A stretch of 64,000 nt of DNA. Source: Methanosphaera sp. BMS (GTDB lineage Archaea; Methanobacteriota; Methanobacteria; Methanobacteriales; Methanobacteriaceae). Location: NCBI RefSeq assembly GCF_003268005.1, contig NZ_CP014213.1, forward strand, positions 1,302,001 through 1,366,000, given 5' to 3'. The number at the start of each line of letters is the position of its first letter. Position 1 is the stretch's first letter. The position numbers were made by a program, and so were the translations under genes. This document shows, piece by piece, positions 10,423 through 16,524 of this stretch. The notes under the pieces were generated by a model. The model worked only from the letters and a program-made list of their open reading frames with translations, searched no databases and was not told where the DNA came from.

Positions 10423-11046
10423 ATGCACATAGGTGATGGTTATCTCTCACTTCCAATTGACATAATCACATATATCATTGCAATCGTTGCATTGTATTTC
10501 GCATTCAAATGGAGCAGAGAAAACCTAGATGAAAAATACATACCATTACTTGCAGTGCTTGCCGCAGGAATATTTGCAATCCAATCATTTAACCTACCGG
10601 TACCATTTGGTTCAAGTGGTCATCTACTGGGTGCCGCATTGGTTGCAATCATATTCTGTAGCCCATATGCTGCAATAATAGTATTAAGTGTAGTGCTTAT
10701 ATTACAAGCATTGTTCTTCGGTGACGGAGGAATAACTACACTAGGAGCAAACATATTAAACATGGCAATAGTAGGTGGATTTGTAGGATTCTACGGATTT
10801 GACTTCTTAAAAGACAAAATCGGAAAATACCCAAGCATATTCATAGCCGCTTGGGCCGGTTGTTTTATAGCTGCCCTTGTAGCTGCTGTCGAAATGGCTT
10901 TAAGCGGAACATTCCCACTTGACTTAGGATTGTTCTACATGGGTGGATACCATGCAATGATAGGATTTATCGAAGCAATCATTACAGTAGTCATAATCAA
11001 AGGATTAGAATCTGTAAGACCAGACTTATTAGCTTGGAATAGGTGA
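10423..11046 (+). CDS. cbiM: Cobalt/nickel ECF transporter substrate-binding component CbiM
   Basis: 207-residue polytopic membrane protein, the substrate-specific unit of an energy-coupling-factor transporter for Co2+ or Ni2+. The mature N-terminus MHIGDGYLS provides the metal-binding His-rich start typical of CbiM/NikM. Further conserved motifs include the small-residue-rich [15 protein letters not shown] with a conserved His. It is followed by cbiN four bases later and by cbiQ. Methanogens need Ni for F430 and hydrogenases and Co for corrinoids; sequence alone does not decide which metal is carried. Confidence 0.93.
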
Positions 11047-11050
11047 TAAT

Positions 11051-11353
11051 ATGGAAGCAAAACATGTATACATAGGAATATTCGCAATAGCATTAATTGT
11101 ATGTGTCTTATCACCATTTTTAGCTTCAGGTGATCCTGATGGTTTAGAAGCATCAGCAGAACATATTGGTGAAACTCACGATGCCGCTATAGCAGCATTA
11201 GAAGCTGAACCTGTAGTAGCTCCAGTCATGCCTGATTATACATTTGAAGGCATGGAAGATAATCCTCTAGTAGGTGTGGCCTGTCTGATATTTGGAGCCA
11301 TCCTGACTGTAGCCTTAGCTTACGGAGTATTCTACGTAATAACAAAAAAATAG
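11051..11353 (+). CDS. cbiN: CbiN-like accessory component of the Co/Ni transporter
   Basis: 100 residues with an N-terminal membrane segment (about 8-26), an extracytoplasmic loop starting SGDPDGLE, and a second membrane segment (about 72-96). The PDGLE motif is the signature of CbiN and the NikN-type PDGLE domain, which assists metal loading of CbiM. The ribosome-binding sequence AGGTGAT overlaps the cbiM stop codon, implying translational coupling. Confidence 0.9.
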   Translation: MEAKHVYIGIFAIALIVCVLSPFLASGDPDGLEASAEHIGETHDAAIAALEAEPVVAPVMPDYTFEGMEDNPLVGVACLIFGAILTVALAYGVFYVITKK

Positions 11354-11523
11354 TATAAATGATATTTATACTCCCTAAACCCCTTTCCTTTTAATAACTG
11401 ATATTACAAAAACAGTTAATAAGATTATACAATTTAATTGAAAGATTATCCATCATATTGACAGAATATAATATATAACTAAAAAGACATAATTAACTAC
11501 TGACAACAACAGGGAGTAATGAC

Positions 11524-12318
11524 ATGGTAAGTGCAAGTGCATTAATGGAACAGGAACTTTTATCCAGTAAAGACAGCATTCTACACAACATCGACAGTAG
11601 GATTAAACTTATAGTCCTAATATTGACTATACTAGCTGCGGTTACAACAACAAACTACACGATTCTTGTCATACTTGAGCTATACCTTATAGCATTGGTT
11701 ATCATTGCCAAGATACCCCTCAAGCAGGCATTTATCAAGGTACTTGTAATACTGCCCTTCGGATTATTCATTGCATTATTTCAGCCGTTTATCCAGCCAG
11801 GAGATGTATTGTACACGTTACCGTTTGGAATCAATATAACACTGCAGGGTCTTCAATTTGCACAGCTTCTGTTGTCACGATTGGTGATAAGCATAACGGC
11901 CATCGTGTTATTCTCATTTATTACCCCAATGAACAGTATTGCAGAGGCATTCAGAAGGTTGCATATGCCAAATGAATTTGCAATGATTTTTTCATTGTTC
12001 GTCAGGTTCATATTCCTGTTTTATGATGAATTCGAAAGTATTCGGCAGGCACAAAACAGCAGATGCTTCAGCCTATCAAACAATACGCCATACCTGTGGA
12101 AGGTCAAACAGGTCGGATACGTATTTCTGATGATGTTTATTCGTTCATATGAACGTGGAGAAAGCGTGTACAACAGTATGGCAAGCAGAGGATATAGTGC
12201 CAGCAGTACAATATATTATAAGGATGAACGATTATCCCTAAACAGCATATTATACCTGCTTATTCCGGTAGTACTCATCATAGCATTAAATGTCTTGAAT
12301 TATCTGCATATAATTTAA
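11524..12318 (+). CDS. cbiQ: ECF transporter transmembrane component CbiQ
   Basis: 264-residue EcfT-type membrane protein that couples the CbiM substrate unit to the ATPase. Several membrane segments are visible between residues 28 and 130 and at the C-terminus. The cytoplasmic coupling helices normally carry two Ala-x-x-x-Arg-Gly-type motifs. Here the second is intact (SMASRGYS) while the first reads AQNSRCFS, with Cys in place of Gly. It lies 170 bp after cbiN. The ATPase cbiO, usually next, is absent from this window. Confidence 0.92.
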   Translation: MVSASALMEQELLSSKDSILHNIDSRIKLIVLILTILAAVTTTNYTILVILELYLIALVIIAKIPLKQAFIKVLVILPFGLFIALFQPFIQPGDVLYTLPFGINITLQGLQFAQLLLSRLVISITAIVLFSFITPMNSIAEAFRRLHMPNEFAMIFSLFVRFIFLFYDEFESIRQAQNSRCFSLSNNTPYLWKVKQVGYVFLMMFIRSYERGESVYNSMASRGYSASSTIYYKDERLSLNSILYLLIPVVLIIALNVLNYLHII

Positions 12319-13717: not shown

Positions 13718-14815
13718 ATGTCAGCAGCAGAAGATAGAATTAAAGAGATTGAGGCAGAAATTAAGAAAACTCAAAAGAATAAGGCAACATCACACCATAT
13801 AGGTAAGCTTAAGGCCCAAATAGCACAGCTTAAAGAAAAGATTGAAAAACGTAACAGTCAAGGATCCAAGGGAGAAGGTTTCCACGTGAAAAAAAGTGGA
13901 GATTCAACTGCGGTACTTTTAGGATTCCCATCAGTGGGTAAATCGACAATCCTAAACTACCTTACAAATGCAAATTCAAAGGTAGGAGCATATGAATTTA
14001 CAACACTGGACATTGTACCCGGAATAATGAGTTATGAGGACGCTAAGATACAGATACTGGATATTCCAGGAATCATCAAAGGTGCAAGTAAGGGTAAGGG
14101 TAAGGGCCGTGAAATATTGTCTGCTACCAGAAACGCGGATTTAATCATCATGGTACTTGACGTGTTCCAGCCGGAACATATGGATGTAATCCTTGAGGAA
14201 GTGAGAAATATCGGTGTAAGGCCTAACGAGAAAAAGCCACTGGTAAAGGTATCCAAGAAGAAAATGGGAGGATTAAATATCGTCTCAACTGTACCACTAA
14301 CTTATATAGATGAAAAGACCATCCATTCAATTTTAAGTGAATACGGTATTCACAGTGCTGATGTGGTTATAAGGGAAGACGTTACAATAGACAGGTTCAT
14401 CGATGCATTGGAGCCAAACAGGGCATACATACCAATGACAATAGTAGTTAACAAGATAGACCTTGCAAGTGAGGAACACCTTGAAAAGCTACGAAAGAAA
14501 CTTCCAAATGCACTCTTTGTATCGGCAGACGATGGGATTATGATGGAAGAGATGAAGGAAAGGATATTCGTTGATCTTGACCTGATGAGACTGTACCTTA
14601 AGCCGCAGGGTAAGAAGGCTGATATGGATGAACCATTGATTATACGACGGGGTTCAACTATTGAGGATGTTGCTCGTAAATTACACAGGGATTTTGTCAA
14701 GAACTTCAAATACGCTAAGGTATGGGGTAAATCGGTTAAATTCCCTGGTCAAAAAGTGGGATTGGACCATGTACTTGAAGATCATGACATCGTAAGAATC
14801 ATCATTAAAAAATAA
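13718..14815 (+). CDS. DRG-family (Obg-like) GTPase
   Basis: 365-residue translation-associated GTPase of the archaeal/eukaryotic DRG family. A basic coiled N-terminal helix covers about 1-60. The G1 loop is GFPSVGKST near residue 69, G3 is DIPGI near 115, and G4 is NKID near 247. The C-terminal TGS domain occupies about the last 70 residues and ends [13 protein letters not shown] proteins associate with ribosomes; the precise role in archaea is unsettled. It is convergent with mptE across a 1-kb region that holds the candidate small RNAs. Confidence 0.94.
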
Positions 14816-14909
14816 TATTTCAAATTAAAGAAATGTTAAACACTTTTAATGTAATCTTTACAAAATATTGGGTAGCATATATATTATATAATGAGTATAT
14901 AATTAATTG

Positions 14910-15000
14910 TACCCACAAGAATTTTTATTATTAAAAATTGTGATTTCATCATATAATTGTCTATATAAAAAAATTATATAGAATCACAGTTTATTTTTAT
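14910..15000 (+). ncRNA. Candidate small RNA, copy 1
   Basis: Starts at the box TACCCACA (14910-14917), 32 bases after a TATA-like TATATATT. Outer stem TTGTGATT (14938-14945) pairs with AATCACAG (14982-14989). Inner stem CTATATAA (14961-14968) pairs with TTATATAG (14974-14981) around a five-base loop. A T-rich tail follows from 14990. Box-to-stem distance is 28 bases, the same as copy 3. Function unknown. Confidence 0.6.
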
Positions 15001-15356
15001 CTTATTTTTAGAAACTTTAAACCAATTTATATATAAATTATTCTGTTATTATTACTTTTTCAATCCATTATGAGTTATCTTGTCCGAATTGATTATGGAT
15101 GTTTTATCACACAGGCTAAGCACTTATTTTACCGATTTTAAACTAGGATCAGTATGCAATACTTTGCTAAGTGACATTTCACCAAACTAATGATACATGA
15201 CAACACATAGTTTAGATAGTAAAAATTTAGAAAAATCCAATTGTTAAAAATAGGTCTTGTTATTACGAACTTTTAAAAACATTGGATTGAAAATAAGCAA
15301 AATGTTAAGTAAAACTTAATTAATTTTATATGATAGTTTATGTAAATAATTAATTG

Positions 15357-15446
15357 TACCCACAGAAACATATAATTACATTTGTGATAAATATAATTCT
15401 TCACTAAATTATACTAGTCACAAATTCTTTTTATTAAACTTTTTTT
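15357..15446 (+). ncRNA. Candidate small RNA, copy 2
   Basis: TATA box TTTATATG at 15325-15332 lies exactly 32 bases before TACCCACA (15357-15364). Outer stem TTTGTGA (15381-15387) pairs with TCACAAA (15418-15424). Inner stem TATAATT (15392-15398) pairs with AATTATA (15407-15413). The inner stem differs from copy 1 but is still paired, which is covariation. A T-rich tail runs to 15446. Confidence 0.6.
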
Positions 15447-15672
15447 ATAAAGCATGTTTTAATTCATTCAACACTAATTTTAACGAATATTTTATTATAT
15501 TATAAGCTTATTCTATAAATACACAATTTAAATTTAATTTAATAAATGTTAAGTATAGTAAAAAAATAGTTCAAGTAGCTACGAAGCTTTAATTTTCATA
15601 GAATAGAAATAATCGAAATTTAAGAGTAAATAAGTTAAGGTTTATATGTTATTTCATTCATATTATATAGTA

Positions 15673-15757
15673 TACCCACAGACATATATAATTTAAAAAC
15701 TTGTGATTCAATAATTTTTCGTATGATTATTTCAATCACAGTTTTTCATTTTTTTCA
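15673..15757 (+). ncRNA. Candidate small RNA, copy 3
   Basis: TATA box TTTATATG at 15641-15648 is again 32 bases before TACCCACA (15673-15680). Outer stem TTGTGATT (15701-15708) pairs with AATCACAG (15734-15741). Inner stem AATAAT (15710-15715) pairs with ATTATT (15726-15731). T-runs at 15742-15746 and 15749-15755 form the terminator. The 3' end is about 55 bases from the mptE stop codon on the other strand. Confidence 0.6.
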
Positions 15758-15813: not shown

Positions 15814-16524
15814 TCATTTGAGCATTTCAAATTCAATTTGAGGATTGTTTTTTATTAAATCATCGGTTATTCGTCGGGCATAATCCAATTTTAATCTTTT
15901 GATATCATCAGCCTTTTCTATCGTTTCTTTATTGTTTGGCCGTGAGTATTTAGTGGTATATTCACCGAAGTCCATACCCGCCAATATGATCTTCTTCATT
16001 TTAAGTGCGTATACTGCTATGTGTATTGCACGGTCCCCATCGGTAAATCCGCCATAGTTAACAACATGTCCTATTGGATTTGTTTGTGTTGTGGCAACTA
16101 CCCTTTCAAGTTGAGGAACATATTTTCTGATTTTATCCATGTTGTCTCCATGTGCATGTACATATATGGTTGATTTGTTTCTGTTTGAGTAGATGATGTC
16201 ATCCATTTTCCCGTCAAGGTCTGTGACAATAATGTCGGGGATTATCCCTTCTTCAACAAGTGCCGTTGTAGCCCCATCAGCTGCAATTATTATATAATTG
16301 TCTTCATCAAGTATGGTTTTAATTGATGATATATGTTTTTTTATTGATGGTCCTGCTCCAAAAATGATACATTTATCCACGCCATGTACATCAACCGTTG
16401 TTTTTTGATGAATTAATGAATCAAGCAGTTGTGCAGATATCTCATCGGCCTTCATATCATAGCCAAAATCATCCAATATCCGTTCATACCACTTATCCCA
16501 GTTATTGTATTTTACACTTATCAT
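15814..16524 (-). CDS. mptE: 6-hydroxymethyl-7,8-dihydropterin pyrophosphokinase, archaeal MptE type
   Basis: 236-residue protein of the DUF115-containing MptE family. It transfers pyrophosphate from ATP to 6-hydroxymethyl-7,8-dihydropterin in tetrahydromethanopterin synthesis. Visible motifs are FGAGPSIKKH (nucleotide-binding Gly-rich loop, about 51-60), AADGAT, PDIIVTDLDG (acidic metal-binding) and FTDGDRA. The architecture is unrelated to bacterial FolK. The cofactor is required for C1 transfer in methanogens. The gene is monocistronic on the minus strand, convergent with the small RNA region. Confidence 0.9.
   Translation of the reverse strand: MISVKYNNWDKWYERILDDFGYDMKADEISAQLLDSLIHQKTTVDVHGVDKCIIFGAGPSIKKHISSIKTILDEDNYIIIAADGATTALVEEGIIPDIIVTDLDGKMDDIIYSNRNKSTIYVHAHGDNMDKIRKYVPQLERVVATTQTNPIGHVVNYGGFTDGDRAIHIAVYALKMKKIILAGMDFGEYTTKYSRPNNKETIEKADDIKRLKLDYARRITDDLIKNNPQIEFEMLK

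Follow-up and report, generated by a model that had tools for sequence, protein, structure and literature searches.

A Methanosphaera-specific family of putative small RNAs with a 5' box complementary to mtaB leaders

Three modules between a GTPase gene and mptE

The window (the whole stretch of DNA analysed, 64,000 nucleotides of the 2,868,093-base Methanosphaera sp. BMS genome, G000) includes a gap of about 1 kb between the 3' ends of two convergent genes, one for a GTPase ending at 14815 on the + strand and mptE ending at 15814 on the - strand. The first-pass annotation had recognized this convergent gap and proposed that it holds three paralogous small-RNA-type genes with promoters of their own, a proposal that the results below support. 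The features are:

13718-14815, + strand: DRG/OBG-type GTPase gene (MMR_HSR1, MMR_HSR1_Xtn and TGS domains), constant left neighbour of copy A
14878-14885, + strand: TATA-like element of copy A, box 32 nt downstream
14909-15005, + strand: putative small RNA, copy A, approximate ends; orthologue just 3' of the GTPase gene in other Methanosphaera
14910-14917, 14938-14943 with 14984-14989, + strand: copy A box and outer stem, followed by a T-rich tail
15325-15332, + strand: TATA-like element of copy B, conserved promoter spacing
15356-15440, + strand: putative small RNA, copy B, approximate ends; orthologue convergent to mptE in other Methanosphaera
15357-15364, 15382-15387 with 15418-15423, + strand: copy B box and outer stem, followed by a T-rich tail
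15641-15648, + strand: TATA-like element of copy C, conserved promoter spacing
15672-15757, + strand: putative small RNA, copy C, approximate ends; otherwise only in the close relative G013
15673-15680, 15701-15706 with 15736-15741, + strand: copy C box and outer stem, followed by a T-rich tail
15814-16524, - strand: MptE-like gene (PF01973), convergent, constant right neighbour of copy B

All three modules have the same order: a TATA-like element (starting at 14878, 15325 and 15641), exactly 32 nt to the box TACCCACA (at 14910, 15357 and 15673), 18-21 nt, a TTGTGA...TCACA hairpin and a T-rich tail. The 32-nt distance had been noted at first pass and is exact in every copy; the 25-28 bases given there for the second spacer also agree, as 28, 25 and 28, if counted from ACCCACA, apparently the annotation's own way of counting, while the distance from box to TGTGA is 21, 18 and 21 nt in copies A, B and C. 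TACCCACA occurs three times in the window, always inside this gap, a count that is not in itself unusual (mean 2.67 in shuffled sequence). What makes the arrangement notable is the fixed layout together with the similarity of the three copies, which align in register over 53 nt at 72-75% identity. Their hairpins have z-scores of -2.8, -4.1 and -3.9 (A, B and C) against dinucleotide shuffles, and the gap has no ORF of 60 or more amino acids.

Some neighboring features may be recorded here. The region between copies A and B (window 15040-15300) is less AT-rich and has CACTTA/TAAGTG inverted repeats, possibly the remnant of another element; in G011 the gap at the same place is longer still (1.2 kb). 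The promoters of the putative sRNA genes share TGTAAANTTTAA(T/C) about 45-60 nt upstream of the box (window 15300-15311, for example), not obviously present in mtaB promoters and possibly a regulator site for the sRNA genes. Upstream of the GTPase gene, at window 10423-12318, are ORFs for CbiM, a PDGLE-domain protein and CbiQ (cobalt/nickel uptake), and most related genomes with long enough contigs have a CbiQ relative close by; cobalt is a requirement of the methanol corrinoid system.

Distribution and predicted structure within the genus

A search with 4227 Rfam models found nothing in the window at the gathering threshold and nothing at E<=1 in four related loci, in keeping with the earlier remark that no family with these features is known. 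In DNA searches the module was present in most genomes of the same genus. A covariance-model search of relatives, the check suggested at first pass, was carried out with a model built on 27 copies: 18 of the 20 Methanosphaera genomes proved to have one to three copies, and a search with stricter filters found no copy in 119 genomes from the rest of the taxonomic family; at the level of sequence the RNA is restricted to Methanosphaera. A nineteenth genome, the sister species G016, has a single diverged long form, read by eye, with the same 5' box and the same terminal stem; an insertion between box and terminal hairpin (L116 5244-5450), predicted to form a long hairpin, makes the spacer 115 nt long instead of about 20. 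Used as a query against relatives, this long form had no convincing homologue outside the genus, its other matches at E<=0.001 resembling AT-rich background. A covariance-model match in G018 (E=0.8) was rejected as lacking the box (TACCAACA); the GTPase gene was not found in G018 either, probably because of an assembly gap.

Synteny is strict wherever contigs reach. Copy A lies about 100-130 nt beyond the GTPase stop codon in most genomes and moves with the GTPase gene where the block is inverted (G003, G008, G019), and copy B faces mptE; the third copy, C, is common to the window genome and G013 only.

In 31 sRNA copies the box is invariant and the TATA-like element keeps its spacing. The outer stem is paired in 92.1% of cells genus-wide, vs. 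88.3% in shuffles and 30-44% when slid; the sequence of its core hardly varies, and the few compensatory changes are at the edge (A-U to U-A or C-G, and U-A to A-U in G010). Inner stems vary between copies and species, and 20 of the 31 fold better than shuffles (p<0.05). The first-pass annotation had read covariation from the three window copies, which cannot show it by themselves because their outer stem is nearly constant and their inner stems cannot be aligned base by base; in the genus-wide set it is real, if modest. Copy A has two overlapping inner stems that exclude each other, ATATAATTT/AAATTATAT and CTATATAA/TTATATAG. The string (A)CATATAATT is found in nearly all copies, in the hairpin-loop region of A and right after the box in B; alignments A2/A3 also place it in the 5' single strand of copies B/C.

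A two-state switch RNA, in which the box would alternatively form a helix with the TGTG of the stem, had also been proposed and was rejected on two grounds. The box is predicted to be single-stranded, 90-100% unpaired in the ensemble, and the compensatory change in the G010 stem (TAGTGA/TCACTG) keeps the stem pairing while breaking the proposed pairing with the box.

Could the modules be something other than genes, that is, terminator hairpins of the GTPase gene followed by AT-rich spacer resembling promoters by chance? The gap is AT-rich and lies between gene ends, and a hairpin with a T-run is indeed terminator-like. This explanation is nevertheless hardly credible given independent TATA-like elements at fixed spacing and a conserved box in 31 copies, orthologues that keep their place and strand and follow the GTPase gene through its inversion in G003, G008 and G019, and sequence that changes while structure stays. 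Features of trans-acting sRNAs found here include an own promoter, a hairpin with T-rich tail, intergenic position and the lack of an ORF, together with a conserved, predicted unpaired seed that has an invariant complement in mtaB leaders, as described below.

Complements of the box in mtaB leaders and sense copies beyond nikR

The perfect complement of the box, TGTGGGTATA, is present in all 28 distinct mtaB leaders collected from 14 Methanosphaera genomes, 34-52 nt upstream of the ATG; G016 has it. ATGTGGGTATA is common to all 28, with positions farther out varying, and TGTGGGTATA is absent from mtaB leaders in three genera without the RNA. In most mtaB genes the motif is close to the predicted 5' end of the mRNA. 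In group 1, the larger set, the start predicted from the TATA element falls between about -8 and +2 relative to the motif, which would place the motif at the 5' end of the mRNA as the box is at that of the sRNA. In group 2 the start is uncertain: the nearest TATA-like sequence would put it downstream of the motif, which would then not be transcribed; this counts against seed pairing. Group-2 promoters (e.g., L201, L204, L213, L219) also have, upstream of the leader motif, two inverted elements, AAGTATTA and TAATAC(TT), spaced by about 30-45 nt; the pair looks like a transcription-factor site.

The complete genome G014 (1,767,403 bases), presumably M. stadtmanae DSM 3091, allows these sites to be enumerated by pattern searches, the source of all motif counts here. 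The M. stadtmanae genome has 32 sites of TGTGGGTA, the complement of the box, vs. 61 for a reversed control. Three of them lie in 5' leaders of ORFs of about 461-467 amino acids, one of them MtaB (Pfam PF12176, E=4.5e-212; NCBIfam NF040651 above cut-off) and the other two matching this tested MtaB at 94% and 78-79% identity; a fourth lies after another copy of this promoter, and what comes next is masked. The longer TGTGGGTAYAA has six sites: two at sRNAs, two at mtaB genes, one at an mtaB-like promoter with masked sequence downstream, and one at nikR. TACAA variants of the motif elsewhere in the window genome were set aside as background, those inspected (part of the total) being inside or next to ORFs.

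The remaining TGTGGGTATAA sites in good genomes are mostly just beyond nikR (NikR identified by PF08753) and antisense to it. The nikR strand itself reads TTATACCCACA, 10-43 nt after the stop codon, and 18 of 20 Methanosphaera genomes have this sense box, UAUACCCACA, just past that codon, vs. none of 10 loci from other genera; the two exceptions are G006, with the near-miss TATACCCACT, and G016, with none. Conservation spans ten bases, TATACCCACA, and drops outside them; the box has no promoter or TATA at fixed spacing, and it keeps to the end of nikR whatever gene comes next. Its strand and its conservation indicate that the nikR 3'UTR has an element in the same sense as that of the sRNAs, and as sequence it is at least as good an mtaB complement as they are, flanks adding little to the nikR-mtaB pairing and mostly not exceeding shuffled flanks. 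An example of (T)TATACCCACA is at G014:C1:1390067-1390077 (nikR loci L289-L307). In G008 and G019 the box occurs twice in tandem. The mtaB complements and the nikR copies, visible only by comparison with other sequences, go beyond the first-pass annotation and point to the likeliest function.

The interpretation that we favor, and hold to be rather probable, is that the sRNA 5' seed pairs with mtaB leaders and that the nikR 3'UTR has the same anti-mtaB element. Several observations count against pairing: the seed is only 8-11 bp long, the leader motif is predicted to be only about 32% unpaired, and box and leader, both being invariant, offer no covariation. In whole-length duplex predictions for copies A and B the box is not chosen as the best site; such energies were discarded as uninformative for these two copies, since AU-rich pairing dominates them. 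In favor of pairing, the sRNAs have only G or A, each able to pair with U, opposite an invariant U of the mtaB leader.

One alternative is that TGTGGGTAYAA (10-11 bp) is a DNA operator through which a single factor co-regulates mtaB operons and, with the site reversed, the sRNA genes, whose own function would then be something else. Promoters of sRNAs and of group-1 mtaB genes have the motif overlapping their predicted start, at a nearly equal distance from the TATA element; in group 2 it may sit between TATA and start. The motif shows no covariation, as would be the case for a protein site. Such an operator would not, however, be expected just past the nikR stop codon and away from any recognizable promoter, and orientation is fixed by class, box-sense in sRNA genes and nikR and complement-sense in mtaB. 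In addition, the C/G variant of most sRNA copies never appears in mtaB or nikR, an asymmetry expected from G.U pairing and unlike a degenerate protein site. The position beyond nikR, the fixed orientation classes and the tolerance of G or A opposite the invariant U lead us to prefer RNA pairing and to consider an operator unlikely.

Another alternative is that the RNAs are real and act through a protein that binds box and stem, the mtaB match being a by-product (for example, if mtaB or nikR mRNAs were decoys). The outer stem is nearly invariant, beyond what pairing alone would require, as protein binding might explain; a protein that reads UACCCACA, however, leaves unexplained an exact, invariant complement in 28 of 28 mtaB leaders, and this model seems very improbable.

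A possible mechanism and its setting

Under the pairing model, each copy would be a small non-coding RNA, about 85-95 nt long and specific to Methanosphaera, that starts from its own TATA promoter at the box or a few bases before it and has a hairpin and a U-rich tail at its end. Its 5' box (U-R-UACCCACA) would stay single-stranded and serve as an antisense seed, with UGUGGGUAUA as its partner, invariant and close to the 5' end of the mRNA for MtaB, the methanol:corrinoid methyltransferase; the variable hairpin would be a stability and terminator module. As the seed site is well upstream of the ribosome-binding GGTGA, control of mtaB mRNA stability or of access to its 5' end is likelier than blocking of the ribosome site. 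The nikR 3'UTR may feed nickel status into the mtaB leader, or may act as a competitor. The sequences themselves show the anatomy of the genes, their conservation and synteny across the genus, the perfect complementarity and the restriction to Methanosphaera; transcription, pairing in the cell and the direction of regulation are what we infer from them. More tentatively still, and with somewhat less than even confidence, a genus-wide RNA network on methanol methanogenesis may be envisaged, in which two to three sRNAs and the nikR 3'UTR present one anti-mtaB seed to all mtaB 5' ends and link nickel to methanol post-transcriptionally.

Among methanogens, sRNA162 of Methanosarcina mazei is likewise intergenic, is proposed to pair in trans through a single-stranded region, and has a role in switching between methanol and methylamine (PMC3510493). 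It differs in masking the ribosome-binding site of a transcription-factor gene and in also having a cis target (PMC3510493), whereas the Methanosphaera paralogues share a 5' seed of 8-11 nt aimed upstream of the mtaB ribosome site; the two are set apart by description, Rfam having given no match. M. mazei sRNA154, which is reported to stabilize some target mRNAs and to block translation of another, uses hairpin loops, has nitrogen-fixation targets and is conserved in Methanosarcina, not in Methanosphaera (reviewed in PMC5867862). It is a precedent for stabilization, as sRNA162 is for antisense control in a methanol/methylamine context. Literature available without subscription yielded no Methanosphaera sRNAs or start-site maps, and nothing on the control of the multiple mtaB copies.

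Bacterial trans-acting sRNAs of the 5'-seed class have a short single-stranded 5' seed, a 3' hairpin with U tail, and multiple copies and targets. The Methanosphaera RNAs resemble them in their conserved 5' seed, 3' hairpin with U tail and several copies, and differ in having archaeal TATA promoters and, as predicted partners, a single type of target gene together with an mRNA whose 3'UTR has that seed too; we know of no chaperone such as Hfq for them. The trans-acting sRNA is a known kind, while the family, its predicted target and the seed shared with an mRNA 3'UTR appear to be new.

Methanosphaera are obligate H2-dependent methylotrophs, and their entry reaction is therefore the one catalysed by mtaB. 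A steep rise of Methanosphaera mtaB mRNA in the rumen after feeding has been reported (PMC10658910). An sRNA family with an exact seed match in mtaB leaders, and the same seed in the nikR 3'UTR, make a testable control system for the path from methanol to methane, and would constitute an archaeal sRNA-target pair backed by genus-wide conservation of both partners. The sequences suggest that this family controls a key step of methane formation from methanol in the gut genus Methanosphaera.
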